Positions 2,768 to 25,738 of a stretch of 64,000 bases of DNA are shown piece after piece. Made by a program: the position numbers and the translations under genes. The DNA comes from an uncultured Nitrospirota bacterium (GTDB lineage Bacteria; Nitrospirota; Nitrospiria; Nitrospirales; UBA8639). The DNA is taken from NCBI GenBank assembly GCA_937139405.1, contig CAKZPV010000049.1:124001-188000 (forward strand). The letters run 5' to 3'. Each line of letters begins with the position of its first letter. The stretch's first letter is position 1. The notes under the pieces are model-generated. The model searched no databases and had not been told where the DNA came from. It was given only the letters and a program-made list of their open reading frames with translations.

Positions 2768-3850
2768 TTAGGCTTTACGTTTTTCAAAATCCACCATATA
2801 GCTAATCAACGCATCGACGCCCGCTTCAGGCATAGCATTGTAAATACTGGCTCGCATGCCCCCTACCGAACGATGACCTTCTAATGTCGTTAACCCAGCA
2901 GACGTAGCACCGGATAAAAATTCCTTATCGAGCTCTGGCTTAGCGAGAATAAACGGAACATTCATCCAAGATCGTGAAGCCTTTTCCACAGGATTGCTAT
3001 AGAAATTCGATCCATCGATAGCCGCGTACAATTTTTTTGCCTTACGTTCATTGATTGTAGCCATCGCCTCCAAGCCGCCTTGGGCTTTGACCCATTTGAA
3101 GACCAACCCAGCCAAATAGACCCCAAAAGTTGGGGGAGTATTCAGCATGGAATCAGCTTCAGCTTGCTTGGCGTAATCAAAAACGCTCGGCGTGATAGGT
3201 AGTGCATGGCCAATGAGATCATCTCGTACAATGACTAACGTTACTCCTGCGGGACCGATATTTTTTTGAGCCCCGGCATAGATCAATCCAAATCGACTTA
3301 CATTGAGCGGGCGAGAAAAAATGGTGGAGGAAAAATCGGCTACTAAAGGCACATCCCCTGTCTTTGGCACCCAGTGAAATTCCACGCCACCAATCGTCTC
3401 GTTGGGCGTATAATGCACGTATGCGGAATCTTTCTGTAAAGACCAACTATCAAATGAAGGAATACTCGTAAATTTCCCCTCTTCCGAAGAAGCGGCTAGA
3501 TTGACGGTGCAATACTTTTTGGCGTCGCTAATGGCCTTTTTCCCCCAGGCCCCGGTCAATATGTAATCGGCAGTCGCTTTTCCACGCAACAAGTTCATAG
3601 GAATCGTGGCGAATTGAGTAGAGGCGCCACCCTGGAGGAACAACACCTTGTAATTGTTGGGTACCCCTAATAGGTCCCGAACGTCCTGCTCCGCTTCCGC
3701 GGCAACCGAGACGAATTCCTTCCCGCGGTGGCTCATCTCCATAATGGAGGCACCAGCCCCATGCCAATCCAATAATTCTTCTTGAGCTTGCTTTAAAACG
3801 GCTTCCGGCAGGATTGCTGGCCCAGCACTAAAGTTATACACACGTGGCAT
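2768..3850 (-). CDS. serC: Phosphoserine aminotransferase SerC
   Basis: PLP-dependent class V aminotransferase that converts 3-phosphohydroxypyruvate and glutamate into O-phosphoserine; the family also serves pyridoxine synthesis. The 360 residues match the family. The start MPRVYNFSAGPAILPEAVL is the classic SerC N-terminus. The PLP-lysine region reads YAGAQKNIGPAG, and the C-terminal EGHRSVGGMRASIYNAMP motif is diagnostic. It is the first gene of the minus-strand run serC-serA-hisZ, divergent from the hypothetical gene at 4017, so its promoter should lie in the roughly 165 bp between them. Confidence 0.97.
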   Translation of the reverse strand: MPRVYNFSAGPAILPEAVLKQAQEELLDWHGAGASIMEMSHRGKEFVSVAAEAEQDVRDLLGVPNNYKVLFLQGGASTQFATIPMNLLRGKATADYILTGAWGKKAISDAKKYCTVNLAASSEEGKFTSIPSFDSWSLQKDSAYVHYTPNETIGGVEFHWVPKTGDVPLVADFSSTIFSRPLNVSRFGLIYAGAQKNIGPAGVTLVIVRDDLIGHALPITPSVFDYAKQAEADSMLNTPPTFGVYLAGLVFKWVKAQGGLEAMATINERKAKKLYAAIDGSNFYSNPVEKASRSWMNVPFILAKPELDKEFLSGATSAGLTTLEGHRSVGGMRASIYNAMPEAGVDALISYMVDFEKRKA

Positions 3851-20517: not shown

Positions 20518-21915
20518 ATGCCCCCATCTCATGGAGGAGATGTGACGAGACACATTACGCGTCTGTTTCTGCTACCCACATGGTTTTTGTTAGCTGTCTC
20601 CATTCTTTTCCCTTCCGCAGTATTTGCCGAAGGCTTTCGGGTCCTTGATCACGGAGCGGCCGCTACTGGACAGGGAGCGGCCTTTTCGGCACAAGCGGAT
20701 AATGCATCCGCTGTCCATTATAACCCAGCTGGGATGACGCAATTAAAAGGGATCCATTTTTCTACCGGAACCTTACTCATAGCAGGATCCCTCCGATTTA
20801 AAAGTGATGTCGGGCCCAAAGTAAAAGGCGATCTTGGCAGTACCATTGCTAATCCCCCTCCCAGCACATTTTTCCTCACAGCACATCTGCCTGCACTCGG
20901 TCTGACGAACTTACCCAATTGGACGATTGGCTTCGGCTTGACATCTCCTTTTGCGCTGTCCGTTGATTATCCGGATAATAGTCTCATCGCTCCAGTGACC
21001 ACGATGGCGGCACTTCCCCTGATTGATCTTAAGCCAACTCTGGCATACAAACTCAACGACTATATCGCTATAGGAGCAGGGCTAGATTTCTATACCTTTG
21101 CTGATTTTAACGGTGAAGGGCATGCTGAAGTCCAACAAAACGCCGCGCCGGGAAACCCATTTGGCATTCCTGCGGGGACGAACCTTGAGGGGAATGGCAG
21201 TGACACGGCCATGGGCTTTAACGCGAGTCTCTTGTGGACTCCCTGGCGAAATGCGCAAGACCAACCCCGACTGAATTTAGGATTTGTGTTTCGCCACGGA
21301 CCTGACTTGGATCTTAAAGGCGATTTTCTAGCTGGTGGGACCCGCTTGGCTGGAGCCCAAACCACGATTGAATTGCCTGATACCTATACGTGGGCGATTG
21401 CTGGATGGCCGATACGAAATGCGCAGCGAGCATGGAAAGTGGAAATTGATGTGGACTACGCCGATTGGAGCGACTTCGAGGACCTCAATTTTAATTTATC
21501 CAATGGGGCAACGATTCCTAATCGCAGAAATTACGGGGATGCCTGGATAGTCATGGTCGGGACGGAATATTCTCTCTTCTCACCCAATCTTTTGCCACAA
21601 TGGGATGTATCTATGAGAGGAGGGTATGTTCGATCTGGAACACCGGTTCGCAGTCAAACCCTTGACCCTGCTAATCCCGACTCAGAATACCATGCTCTCT
21701 CGGCGGGCCTCGGTTTCCAATGTAACGCCGGAGGAAAATTTCTGGGGGTACTTCTCTGTGACGACTTCGGGTGGAAAGCCATAGCCCTTGATTTCGCTTA
21801 CCAAGTCCTACTCTACGACGCACGGGATGTAAATAACAACCAACAACCGCTCTTAAATGGCACGTGGGATACCACCATCCACGTAGGAGCCATATCGTTG
21901 CGTATGCAGTTCTAA
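20518..21915 (+). CDS. FadL/OmpP1/TodX-type outer-membrane channel
   Basis: A beta-barrel transporter for hydrophobic compounds. After a signal peptide (LFLLPTWFLLAVSILFPSAVFA), the mature protein begins EGFRVLDHGAAATGQGAAFSAQADNASAVHYNPAGMTQLKG; its key parts ATGQGAAFSAQADN and VHYNPAGM are FadL hallmarks. It ends in ISLRMQF, with the terminal Phe that outer-membrane assembly recognises. The frame is open further upstream, but ATG 20518, or GTG 20542 directly after GGAGGA, gives a proper signal peptide. The real substrate (fatty acid, alkane or aromatic) is unknown. It is followed by a histidine kinase. Confidence 0.9.
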   Translation: MPPSHGGDVTRHITRLFLLPTWFLLAVSILFPSAVFAEGFRVLDHGAAATGQGAAFSAQADNASAVHYNPAGMTQLKGIHFSTGTLLIAGSLRFKSDVGPKVKGDLGSTIANPPPSTFFLTAHLPALGLTNLPNWTIGFGLTSPFALSVDYPDNSLIAPVTTMAALPLIDLKPTLAYKLNDYIAIGAGLDFYTFADFNGEGHAEVQQNAAPGNPFGIPAGTNLEGNGSDTAMGFNASLLWTPWRNAQDQPRLNLGFVFRHGPDLDLKGDFLAGGTRLAGAQTTIELPDTYTWAIAGWPIRNAQRAWKVEIDVDYADWSDFEDLNFNLSNGATIPNRRNYGDAWIVMVGTEYSLFSPNLLPQWDVSMRGGYVRSGTPVRSQTLDPANPDSEYHALSAGLGFQCNAGGKFLGVLLCDDFGWKAIALDFAYQVLLYDARDVNNNQQPLLNGTWDTTIHVGAISLRMQF

Positions 21916-22010
21916 CATTTCCTCCTAAATTTTTTGGCCTATACCCTCTTCACCCTTTTCCTCATTTCCTTTACAGTCTCTCCACGCACCCATCTCTGAC
22001 GAGGCCATTC

Positions 22011-24347
22011 ATGGCATTGCTGCCTAAAGCGCATCGTATTCTAGAACGACCCCTTATGGAATTCCGCCCTTTCGGGCGGGACCATCAAGGCACAACCATT
22101 CAAGATGTAAGCGGGATTACCGTGAGAGCGAATCTGGAATATCTTGAAAGTCTCTTTACCCCTCAATACGGAGCCGAGGCCGCTCAAGCAACGTTGGAGA
22201 AGCTGGTGTTGCTTTTAAACGAACGTATCTCAGACCGCACGTATCATGTGACAGTCGATTTCTTAAAAAATCCCTGGAACAGTTATTCATATGAATTTGT
22301 GATGTTTTTGACCGAATTTTCAATAAAACTGTCTGAACAGCCTGATTACCATTTCAATCTTGGACGGGAGAAACTTCTATCGCCCCTGGTCCAGATTCTT
22401 GGGCGACCCTTTTCGATCGTTCAAATTTATCGGCTCTTTCCCTACTTCGCAGAAAAGTTTGCCAAGGGATCACTCAGACCGGAAGTCATCTCCGTAACGA
22501 ACGGTCATGCGGTCATCCGACTGAACTTTTCCGAATCGGTTCTCAACCAATTTGGTCCCTATCTCCGTGGATGTGCGGAGCGAATCTGCCATACTTCTAA
22601 GGCTACACTTGCACAGATCCCCGCCAGCATGTTTGGTCAACAGCCAGCCACTATCCAAGATACCTGTTGCATCGCTCAGGGAGATTCCTATTGCGAATGG
22701 ATCTTTCGATGGAGCCCCCAAACTTCGCCCCTCTGGATCTGGATGTTTGCGGGAGCCGCCCTCAGCCTTATGATGCTCGGCCTGACGATGACACTTTTCC
22801 CTCACTATCCCTGGTGGGGTCATGCAGGGCTGTCGCTTCTCCCTTTAATCATCGCACAAATAACTGGACGGATTGTAAGCGACCGAAAAGAGCTCCAAGA
22901 ACGAGGCACGATCATTCAGGAACAACTAGCTTCAGCAGAACACCAGCATGAAGAATTGCGAAACGCCTATCTTCAGCAAGAACATAGCTTGATCGAAGTG
23001 CGGCGACATGTTGACGAATTAACGATGCTCTATGAATTCACTCTCCAAATCGGCTCGACTCTCGACCAGAGACACATTATCCAAGCTGGGCTACAAGCCA
23101 TCCTGCATTCACTTCACTATGACCATGCGTGGATTGCTCTCTGGAATGAAGAGCACCAATGCTTTAACAAGATTCACACCCACGGTGAGTCCTATACGTG
23201 GACCTCAGATCTTCAGAATATAGCCATGCCAGCAACACCCGATGATCTTCTTTACACAGCCCTTCACAGCTCAGACCCGATTATTTTTGAACAGGTCGAA
23301 CAGATTCTAGATCACGCTCACCCTCTAACCCGCCGTATCTTGACCGAAGGCAAACTACACAATGGGATCGCTCTAGCCTTAGTGAGTCAAAATCAGCCGT
23401 TGGGTGTATTAGTCGCTGGGAACCAACAAGCAACGCCACGATCAGTTTCAGAGCAGAATTTGCTATCCACCGTCGTACACCAATTAGCCATTGCCCTAGA
23501 TACCGCCCTGGCCTACGATGAAATTGAAGCCTTGAATATCGGACTAGAAACGAAAGTCCTGGAACGTACAACTGAACTCCAACGAGCGAATCAGGATCTT
23601 GAAACGGCCAATACCCGACTCAAAGAACTCGACCGGCTCAAATCACAATTTCTCTCCCATTGCTCTCATGAATTACGTACGCCTCTCACGTCAATAAAGG
23701 GCTTCACAGAAAATATGCTGCACGGCATGGTCGGCCCCATAGAGGAGCGCCAACACATGTACCTCACCCGAATCAGCGCCAATACCAATCGATTAACGCG
23801 AATGATTGGCGACCTCTTAGATCTTTCCCGTATTGAGGCCGGGACCGTTCGACTCGCTCATCAAAACGTATCCCTACCAACCCTCTTAGAAGAAGTCACG
23901 CAAGAATTCTTGCCCTTGATCCAAGCGAAAAATCAAGAGTTGACGACGGAAACGACAGGCAAGGAGTTAACGATCTGGGGAGATCCTGATCGCCTTCATC
24001 AAATTGTCACCAATCTCATTCATAATGCTCATAAATTTACACCTGAAGAGGGACGCATTACGGTGACAGCCTGCCAAGCCCCCCCTCATCATATTCTCTT
24101 GTCCATTTCGGATAGCGGCCCTGGCATCACCCAAGAGGCTCAGGCTCACCTTTTCCAGGCTTTTTATCAGGCACACCGAAGACCTGAAATCGGCACCGAA
24201 GGTTTGGGGTTAGGACTTTCGATCGTGAAGCAATTAGTGGAACTTCATGCGGGCACGATCACCGTCGACAGCACAGTTTGCGCAGGGACGACCTTCCATA
24301 TTCGATTGCCTACAACAGCATCGCCACCGGGTTCTCCAACGAACTAA
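22011..24347 (+). CDS. Membrane sensor histidine kinase with V4R-like and GAF domains
   Basis: ATG 22011 with an upstream GAGG gives 778 residues. An N-terminal domain of about 230 residues ends with CCIAQGDSYCEWIFRW, a pattern like the GA-x-x-C-x-Y tail of V4R/heme-NO-binding-like sensor modules. Two membrane helices follow (WIWMFAGAALSLMMLGLTM and HAGLSLLPLIIAQITGRIV), then a coiled coil, a GAF domain (LDQRHIIQAGLQAIL), HisKA with SHELRTPLTSIKGF, and HATPase_c with NLIHNAHKF, SDSGPGI and GLGLGLSIVKQL. It autophosphorylates on the HisKA histidine; the signal and partner regulator are unknown and no regulator lies beside it. Confidence 0.92.
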   Translation: MALLPKAHRILERPLMEFRPFGRDHQGTTIQDVSGITVRANLEYLESLFTPQYGAEAAQATLEKLVLLLNERISDRTYHVTVDFLKNPWNSYSYEFVMFLTEFSIKLSEQPDYHFNLGREKLLSPLVQILGRPFSIVQIYRLFPYFAEKFAKGSLRPEVISVTNGHAVIRLNFSESVLNQFGPYLRGCAERICHTSKATLAQIPASMFGQQPATIQDTCCIAQGDSYCEWIFRWSPQTSPLWIWMFAGAALSLMMLGLTMTLFPHYPWWGHAGLSLLPLIIAQITGRIVSDRKELQERGTIIQEQLASAEHQHEELRNAYLQQEHSLIEVRRHVDELTMLYEFTLQIGSTLDQRHIIQAGLQAILHSLHYDHAWIALWNEEHQCFNKIHTHGESYTWTSDLQNIAMPATPDDLLYTALHSSDPIIFEQVEQILDHAHPLTRRILTEGKLHNGIALALVSQNQPLGVLVAGNQQATPRSVSEQNLLSTVVHQLAIALDTALAYDEIEALNIGLETKVLERTTELQRANQDLETANTRLKELDRLKSQFLSHCSHELRTPLTSIKGFTENMLHGMVGPIEERQHMYLTRISANTNRLTRMIGDLLDLSRIEAGTVRLAHQNVSLPTLLEEVTQEFLPLIQAKNQELTTETTGKELTIWGDPDRLHQIVTNLIHNAHKFTPEEGRITVTACQAPPHHILLSISDSGPGITQEAQAHLFQAFYQAHRRPEIGTEGLGLGLSIVKQLVELHAGTITVDSTVCAGTTFHIRLPTTASPPGSPTN

Positions 24348-24527
24348 ACCAAGTCATCTCATTCTCCATTCAACATCAGTGCTCTTTACAAGAGCCCGGA
24401 AAACTTTGCCGAACTCGGACATCATAGCCCAGCCATCGTGGCCGACTCGGCAAAAAACTCCATAAAACTCTCATGATTTTTAGATGCCTGCCGATATACG
24501 TGGATAGAATTGCTTACACATTTTTTT

Positions 24528-24540
24528 AAAGGAGGTGATC
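24528..24540 (+). promoter_or_regulatory. Unusually perfect ribosome-binding site
   Basis: AAAGGAGGTGATC is complementary over all 13 bases to the conserved 3' end of bacterial 16S rRNA (GATCACCTCCTTT). GGAGG sits 7 bases before the ATG at 24543. Most genes in this window have only 4-6 bases of such pairing, so this site marks a message meant for strong translation. Confidence 0.85.
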
Positions 24541-24542
24541 TC

Positions 24543-24629
24543 ATGGCTAAAGCTGCCAAAAAGAAACCAGCAAAAAAAGCAGCCGTTCGTATGAAGAAAG
24601 CTGCACCGAAGAAAAAATCGTCACGATAG
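24543..24629 (+). CDS. 28-residue lysine/alanine-rich basic peptide
   Basis: Open frame from ATG 24543 to TAG 24629, with near half of the residues Lys or Arg in an AKKKPAKKAAVRMKKA pattern resembling the tail of histone H1-like or HU-type basic proteins. Such peptides bind DNA or RNA through charge; that role is inference. Support for a real gene is the 13-base Shine-Dalgarno match and a hairpin 28 bases after the stop. A 98-codon minus-strand frame across the same place is a shadow. It stands alone between the histidine kinase and aroE. Confidence 0.75.
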   Translation: MAKAAKKKPAKKAAVRMKKAAPKKKSSR

Positions 24630-24656
24630 CTTCTCCGGACGTCACATTGTGTAGAT

Positions 24657-24682
24657 CCGGGGAGTAGATCCCTACTCTCCGG
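24657..24682 (+). terminator. Hairpin after the basic peptide gene
   Basis: Arms 24657-24667 (CCGGGGAGTAG) and 24672-24682 (CTACTCTCCGG) pair over 11 bases with one G-T pair and a 4-base loop. There is no long T-run after it, so intrinsic termination is likely but not certain. Confidence 0.5.
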
Positions 24683-24788
24683 AATACACCTTCCCTTCTG
24701 AATGACCTCCACCGACACTTTTGCTCATACCCATCAACAAACCTAAGGCGTTAATCACTTCAGATAGTTTCCTCGTATTTCTCGTTTT

Positions 24789-24877: not shown

Positions 24878-25738
24878 ATGCCCATCACCGCGCAAACCCA
24901 GCTGTGTGGCCTTCTGGGAAATCCCGTTGATCACTCACTCTCCCCAGCCATTCATAATGCGGCCTTTCAAGAGTTGGGGTTGAATTTCGCCTATCTTGCA
25001 TTTCCCGTTGAAGATAACAATCTCGAAAGCGCCATACGCGGTATCCGCGCACTGGGGCACATTCGTGGGTTCAGCGTCACCATTCCCCATAAAGTCTCCA
25101 TATTGCCTCTATTGGATTCAGTGGAGACGACCGCAAAGCACATTGGATCGGTCAATACCATCATCAAAGACCGTGGGATATTAGTCGGTTCAAATACTGA
25201 CGCATCGGGCGCACTTCAAGCGTTACGGCAAGGTGGAGTTGACCTCAACGGCCAACGAGTCGTCTTATTGGGATCGGGAGGAGCCGCTCGGGCTATTGCG
25301 TTTGGATTATGTATAGAAGGAAATATTGGACAGCTGACACTCATGGGAATCGATGATCAGGAACGAATAGCCTTAGCCTCGGATCTCAGAACAAAAACTG
25401 ACACGACAATTACCGATCATCAGTTGAACAACTCGACACTCGGCACAGCATTAGCCGACGCTCATCTGGTCATCCACTGTACACCTATTGGCATGCATCC
25501 CAAAATTCAGCAAAGTTGCATCCCAAAAGAATTACTCCATTCAGAATTAACCGTCATGGATATTGTCTATAATCCACTTAATACTCAACTACTTCAAGAG
25601 GCGCAAGCAGCTGGCTGCCGCACCATCCAAGGGATTGAAATGTTTCTACATCAAGCTGTCGGACAATTCGAACTTTGGACTGGTCAACCTGCACCAGTCG
25701 ATACCATGCGAAATATCCTCACCTCTCACTTCTCATGA
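24878..25738 (+). CDS. aroE: Shikimate dehydrogenase AroE
   Basis: NADPH-dependent reduction of 3-dehydroshikimate to shikimate, the fourth step of aromatic amino acid synthesis. The N-terminal substrate domain has LLGNPVDHSLSPAIHNAAF (Ser ligands for shikimate) and GFSVTIPHK with the catalytic Lys. NTDASGALQAL and the Rossmann segment VVLLGSGGAARAIAFGL follow. The C-terminus carries QGIEMFLHQAVGQFELWTG. ATG 24878 is taken, not the TTG at 24857, because AAGGA lies at good distance and the family starts there; this gives 286 residues. It overlaps aroK by ATGA. Confidence 0.97.
   Translation: MPITAQTQLCGLLGNPVDHSLSPAIHNAAFQELGLNFAYLAFPVEDNNLESAIRGIRALGHIRGFSVTIPHKVSILPLLDSVETTAKHIGSVNTIIKDRGILVGSNTDASGALQALRQGGVDLNGQRVVLLGSGGAARAIAFGLCIEGNIGQLTLMGIDDQERIALASDLRTKTDTTITDHQLNNSTLGTALADAHLVIHCTPIGMHPKIQQSCIPKELLHSELTVMDIVYNPLNTQLLQEAQAAGCRTIQGIEMFLHQAVGQFELWTGQPAPVDTMRNILTSHFS

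Follow-up and report, generated by a model that had tools for sequence, protein, structure and literature searches.

A conserved lysine-rich micro-gene with a probable sigma-28-type promoter upstream of aroE in Nitrospirales

RESULTS

A micro-gene encoding a basic peptide lies between a histidine kinase gene and aroE

The window, i.e. the whole 64,000-nucleotide stretch of DNA analyzed here, contains an unannotated 28-codon open reading frame, hereafter the micro-gene. The following features were located at and around it:

21864-24347, plus strand: histidine kinase gene (GAF, HisKA and HATPase domains, Pfam), upstream neighbour, synteny conserved
24471-24478, plus strand: -35-like octamer TCATGATT of sigma-28 (FliA) type, a related octamer being present in all micro-gene genera
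24490-24497, plus strand: -10-like octamer GCCGATAT, CCGATA invariant in all orthologues
24528-24540, plus strand: Shine-Dalgarno sequence AAAGGAGGTGATC, 13 nt complementary to the anti-Shine-Dalgarno sequence, 7 nt from GGAGG to ATG
24543-24629, plus strand: 28-codon micro-gene, ATG to TAG, encoding MAKAAKKKPAKKAAVRMKKAAPKKKSSR, frame kept across seven genera
24632-24639, plus strand: segment TCTCCGGA, possible competing partner of the hairpin's 5' arm, probably without function
24649-24689, plus strand: hairpin after the stop codon, GTGTA..TCCGGGGAGTAG/CTACTCTCCGGA..TACAC, with covariation, probable transcript end
24878-25738, plus strand: aroE (shikimate dehydrogenase, Pfam), downstream neighbour, synteny conserved

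The 28-amino-acid product was found to contain 11 lysine, 8 alanine, 2 proline and 2 arginine residues and no acidic or aromatic residues, with a pI of approximately 12 and a calculated charge of approximately +12.5 to +13. Lysine and arginine together make up 46% of the residues, in agreement with an earlier note on this DNA that had described the product as nearly half Lys/Arg. Micro-proteins of fewer than 50 residues are routinely missed. The distance from the micro-gene to the aroE start is approximately 250 nt.

The reading frame is conserved within one family of the Nitrospirales

The host family of Nitrospirales consists of nitrite oxidisers. Orthologues, sought in other Nitrospirota as the earlier note had advised, were found between the same histidine kinase gene and aroE in seven genera of this one family (g1, g3, g5, g6, g7, g8 and g9). 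A DNA search of 60 relatives recovered a copy with conserved synteny in family members and in the window's genus, where 18 genomes, counting that of the window, carried it; the extension to seven genera was obtained by pattern searches and aroE-anchored searches. The micro-protein is MAKVQKKSPKKSASRAKKSPARKQRSRR in g3, MGKPVKKKSTKKSTVRSKKTSPCKKTSR in g6, MARTQRKPAKKAPAARSKKSPTRKQGARSSR in g7 and MPAAKKPAKKATARAKKAPARKPASRAKRR in g8. The length of the orthologues was always 27-31 codons and changed in-frame only, and the mean dN/dS of the micro-gene was approximately 0.11 over 151 pairs. Variable columns at the three codon positions numbered 10, 7 and 20 of 27, respectively, an excess at third positions (binomial p = 0.007), and the residues under strong selection included the non-lysine positions P9, A13, R16 and R28. 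The constant length, the in-frame changes and the low dN/dS indicate that the reading frame is under purifying selection and that the protein, not merely the DNA, is selected, which is the distinction by which the earlier note had proposed to judge the frame. The unannotated basic micro-protein with H1-tail-like composition is borne out as genuine by frame conservation and composition, and the open reading frame at 24543-24629 is almost certainly a real gene.

No members outside the family were found among 236 genomes of the order. In three g1 genomes (G011, G012 and G015) the micro-gene was not matched and neither was aroE, so that these genomes are uninformative on absence. The pattern scans require a strong Shine-Dalgarno sequence and lysine at fixed positions, and more diverged relatives could escape them; members in G026, G027 and G032 were recovered by synteny or BLAST only. 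When one genome per species in GTDB was scanned with the pattern, Nitrospirota/Nitrospirales records were recovered, e.g., UBA8639, NPIRA01-06, OFTM bins and SZUA-312, together with record B18T1B5, which is labelled Nitrospinota and carries the same protein as the g3 genome. Matches in Paenibacillus, Bacteroidales, Ruminococcus, Pedobacter, Veblenbacteria and others were different proteins and were taken as chance. A literature search returned nothing on this micro-gene.

A strong Shine-Dalgarno sequence and a covarying hairpin flank the frame

AAAGGAGGTGATC was the longest anti-Shine-Dalgarno complement preceding any start codon in the window, the next best being 9 nt, and the earlier description of it as the best ribosome-binding site in the window was therefore upheld. 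The window scan scored it as 12, the scan having ended 3 nt short of the ATG. The 13-nt pairing was judged against the usual bacterial 16S rRNA 3' end, from which the host's may differ: the host's own bacterial 16S 3' end was not found in the assembly, where only a eukaryotic-18S-like contig was matched, and nothing was recovered in four relatives. The matched segment (L136, contig C21 of the window's genome, approximately 3403-3443) resembles the 3' end of eukaryotic 18S rRNA and is probably contamination of the assembly. In relatives, the Shine-Dalgarno sequence was GG[A/G]GGTG (GGAGGTG or GGGGGTG), in the forms GAAGGGAGGTGGAACC or GAAGGGGGGTGAG. Because a strong Shine-Dalgarno sequence was found everywhere and the 13-nt form only in part of the window's sub-clade, sequence comparison identifies the latter as an extreme local form of a ribosome-binding site whose strength is conserved. 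The 13-base site of the earlier note is thus present at the 7-nt distance, and its full length is not conserved beyond the sub-clade.

The hairpin that had been noted after the stop codon is real and conserved, and its extent had been understated. It reaches from 24649 to 24689, with an inner stem at 24656-24667/24672-24683. Across relatives, 95.7% of the hairpin cells were paired and the covariation score exceeded that of all shuffles (500/500). A T-run follows the hairpin in g5 and g8, and none follows it in the window's genus. Given the covariation and the T-run in g5 and g8, the simplest reading is that the hairpin is probably a terminator.

A probable sigma-28-type promoter precedes the micro-gene

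The most conserved element upstream of the micro-gene was found at 24471-24497, outside the coordinates of the earlier note, which had missed it. It has the form TCATGATT-N11-GCCGATAT and is similar to the E. coli sigma-28 consensus, TAAAGTTT-N11-GCCGATAA. A T(N)A(N/R)G-like octamer was present 12 nt ahead of CCGATA in every micro-gene genus, and the spacing was constant in all orthologues. By these sequence features the element is very probably a sigma-28-type promoter, from which transcription would start at approximately 24503-24505. The -10 CCGATA, the N11 spacing and a similar -35 box are shared with the FliA/SigD class-3 promoters of flagellar and chemotaxis genes; in contrast to those, the micro-gene promoter also occurs in a genome (G027) that has neither flagellin nor canonical FliA. 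The flagellin genes of five genomes were preceded by a TCAAGTTT-like -35 and an NCGAT-like -10 with the same spacing as in the micro-gene, whose -35 box deviates from that of flagellin and is weaker. The flagellin leaders (L085-L089) also carry a conserved GGA-loop hairpin (CTCAAGGGACGGATCCTTTGAG in the window's genome) before the Shine-Dalgarno sequence, like CsrA-binding leaders. CsrA-type GGA sites in the micro-gene leader, inspected by eye, were inconsistent across genera and were rejected.

A degenerate sigma-28 pattern gave five sites in the genome compared to none for the reversed control. One site was ahead of a methyl-accepting chemotaxis protein (MCP) gene, and two (L022 and L024) were directly before c-di-GMP-I riboswitches, one riboswitch with such a site standing upstream of a response regulator gene. 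The fifth exact site (L023) was inside a long open reading frame and is probably spurious. A similar site was found ahead of a c-di-GMP-I-GGC riboswitch in G031 (L164). The position of sigma-28-type promoters before c-di-GMP-I-type riboswitches suggests combined sigma-28 and c-di-GMP control in the family. With a looser promoter pattern, little or no excess over the control was obtained in five genomes, and several matches were within long open reading frames; as this pattern was not clearly enriched, no genome-wide regulon is claimed, and the evidence applies to the micro-gene site and to the exact pattern.

The micro-gene co-occurs with a second FliA-like sigma factor

The window's genome (G000) encodes both canonical FliA and a second FliA-like protein, FliA2, an orphan sigma factor located at 9176-10069 of L137 (contig C34), with orthologues in L138-L140. 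FliA2 was 281-315 amino acids long in four examples, and its neighbours, named by reading the sequences, are genes that we take to be lptF/lptG-like. Across genera, identity to the G031 query was 49-67% for FliA2 and 43-48% for FliA. Canonical FliA (approximately 260 bits) was present in the tested g1 genomes, with the draft G004 as the one exception, and likewise in the tested flagellin-bearing genomes of other genera. FliA2 and the micro-gene were found together in g1, g3, g5, g6, g7, g8 and g9, and both were absent from g2, g4 and g10, absence in g4 having been determined by pattern in 14 genomes, six of which were examined at the aroE locus. The draft G018 was an exception, as it carried the micro-gene and FliA2 was not detected. 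In G027 (99% complete), FliA2, the micro-gene and the promoter were kept in the absence of canonical FliA and flagellin, which weakens a strict tie of the micro-gene to flagella. G029 (78% complete) contained FliA-like factors and no FliA2, and no micro-gene was found in its partly masked aroE-upstream stretch. The co-occurrence is confounded by phylogeny, and the two genomes that separate it from FliA are G027 and the incomplete G029.

The two sigma factors have in common the region 2.4 motif KFRTxAExRIRGxMLDEIRAMDW and differ in region 4.2, which is TESRICQLH in FliA compared to TESGVCRVH in FliA2. This pattern would be compatible with recognition of a common -10 box but of differing -35 boxes. 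In G000, G010 and G031, FliA2 is preceded at a distance of 240-290 nt by CCGATAA boxes, which hint at possible autoregulation. From the distribution in G027 and G029, the regulator of the micro-gene is slightly more likely to be FliA2 than FliA.

DISCUSSION

Resemblance to histone H1-like tails and small ribosomal proteins

No match of the micro-protein was found in Pfam, NCBIfam or the PDB chains, an NCBIfam hit of one relative (E = 5.2) being meaningless. In composition it resembles the H1-like C-terminal KPAA domains of AlgP/AlgR3 and PhaF of Pseudomonas, which are likewise rich in lysine, alanine and proline, free of acidic residues and of the AKKKPAKK type. In contrast to AlgP and PhaF, it is a free peptide of 27-31 residues with neither an N-terminal domain nor a long repeat array and is apparently under sigma-28-type control, and homology is not demonstrable. 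DNA binding in vitro is known for KPAA peptides, and polyphosphate granules are organized by AlgP, its tail being needed for granule spacing (PMC9239181).

The same genome encodes two or more additional K/A/P micro-proteins, each with a strong Shine-Dalgarno sequence and a T-tract terminator. One (L169, positions 200300-203000 of contig C31) is approximately 52 amino acids long, K/A/P-rich (MATKKKAPAKKKAAKKK...) and conserved in the genus, with relatives in L171, L174 and L175. The other (L170, positions 130000-133000 of contig C2) is a lysine-rich protein of 28 amino acids, MAVTKKKAAPKKKAASARPKAKAATKKK, preceded by the Shine-Dalgarno sequence AAAGGAGGTGA; longer L170-like genes (approximately 60 amino acids) with similar neighbours occur in another family of the order (L172/L173). 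All of these are short and H1-tail-like with a strong Shine-Dalgarno sequence, as is the micro-protein, and L169 and L170 have their own terminator. They differ from the micro-gene in that they lie at other loci and have a different sequence order, L169 and L170 with an apparent TTG start. No CCGATA box was found within 200 nt upstream of the other K/A/P micro-genes except at -178 in L174. With L169 and L170 in the same genome, free peptides of the H1-tail-like type are thus recurrent in it.

In size range and charge, the micro-protein is also similar to the small basic ribosomal proteins bTHX, Sra and bL37, from which it differs in its lack of a family match and its narrow phyletic range. Given its composition and the DNA binding of KPAA peptides, it may bind nucleic acid, a reading that we consider plausible but evenly balanced, and by its composition it may associate with the nucleoid or the ribosome.

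Proposed mechanism and its alternatives

In the mechanism proposed here, a sigma-28-family RNA polymerase (with canonical FliA or FliA2) would start a monocistronic mRNA of approximately 185 nt at approximately 24504. Owing to the strong Shine-Dalgarno sequence, the 28-residue H1-tail-like peptide, with a charge of +13 and probably disordered, would be translated at a high rate and presumably be abundant, and the hairpin would close the mRNA. The peptide would then bind polyanions stoichiometrically by electrostatics, most likely DNA or RNA and less likely polyphosphate, as part of a cell-state change driven by the sigma-28-family factor. The polyanion-binding reading is favoured because of the H1/AlgP/PhaF-like composition, the DNA binding of KPAA peptides and the further K/A/P micro-proteins. 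The mechanism as a whole, in which activity of the sigma-28-family factor leads to strong translation of a polycationic peptide, is about as probable as its negation. The narrower version, in which FliA2 as a non-flagellar sigma-28 paralogue runs a programme and a free H1-tail-like peptide of 27-31 residues (a "micro-histone tail") serves as its effector, is tentative and rather doubtful.

A ribosome-associated basic peptide like bTHX or Sra, binding rRNA, e.g., as a stability or hibernation factor, would account for the small size, the very basic composition, which fits rRNA binding, and the strong Shine-Dalgarno sequence. The searches of Pfam, NCBIfam and the PDB, however, gave no match to ribosomal proteins, the gene occurs only in part of one family, relatives having lost it, and a sigma-28-type promoter would be unusual for a ribosomal component, so that this explanation is unlikely. 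A polyphosphate- or granule-associated peptide acting like the KPAA tail of AlgP is similarly unlikely: its residue composition is that of the AlgP tail, which is required for polyphosphate granule spacing (PMC9239181), but the micro-protein lacks the separate N-terminal domain of AlgP and PhaF.

That the transcript is mainly a small RNA with a secondary open reading frame (a dual-function RNA) would be in line with its shortness, the stable 3' hairpin and the leader conserved in g1 (GATAGNATTGCNTAC); the leader, however, is unconserved beyond g1/g9 where the protein is conserved, changes are in excess at third codon positions, and no Rfam match was found, the window giving two tRNAs only. We regard this as very unlikely. 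The earlier note had offered as an alternative a leader peptide or lysine-supply sensor, here taken as one controlling aroE or the hairpin by attenuation. There are many lysine codons, and the hairpin's 5' arm could instead pair with 24632-24639, but this alternative pairing showed no covariation (430/500 shuffles reached its score) and was absent in g5. No conserved, mutually exclusive antiterminator pairing was thus found, and attenuation of aroE is disfavoured. Moreover, non-lysine residues are under strong selection, and the micro-gene has its own promoter and, with a T-tract in several genera, its own terminator, and it lies approximately 250 nt from aroE. These findings speak against the leader peptide, which is very unlikely.

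If the polycationic peptide and its control are confirmed, a sigma-28-family programme would be linked to a polycationic, possibly nucleoid-acting peptide. The micro-gene, whose conservation extends over a family of nitrite oxidisers, has a testable regulator, and such confirmation would also open a way to study this orphan FliA-like sigma factor in the hardly studied Nitrospirales.
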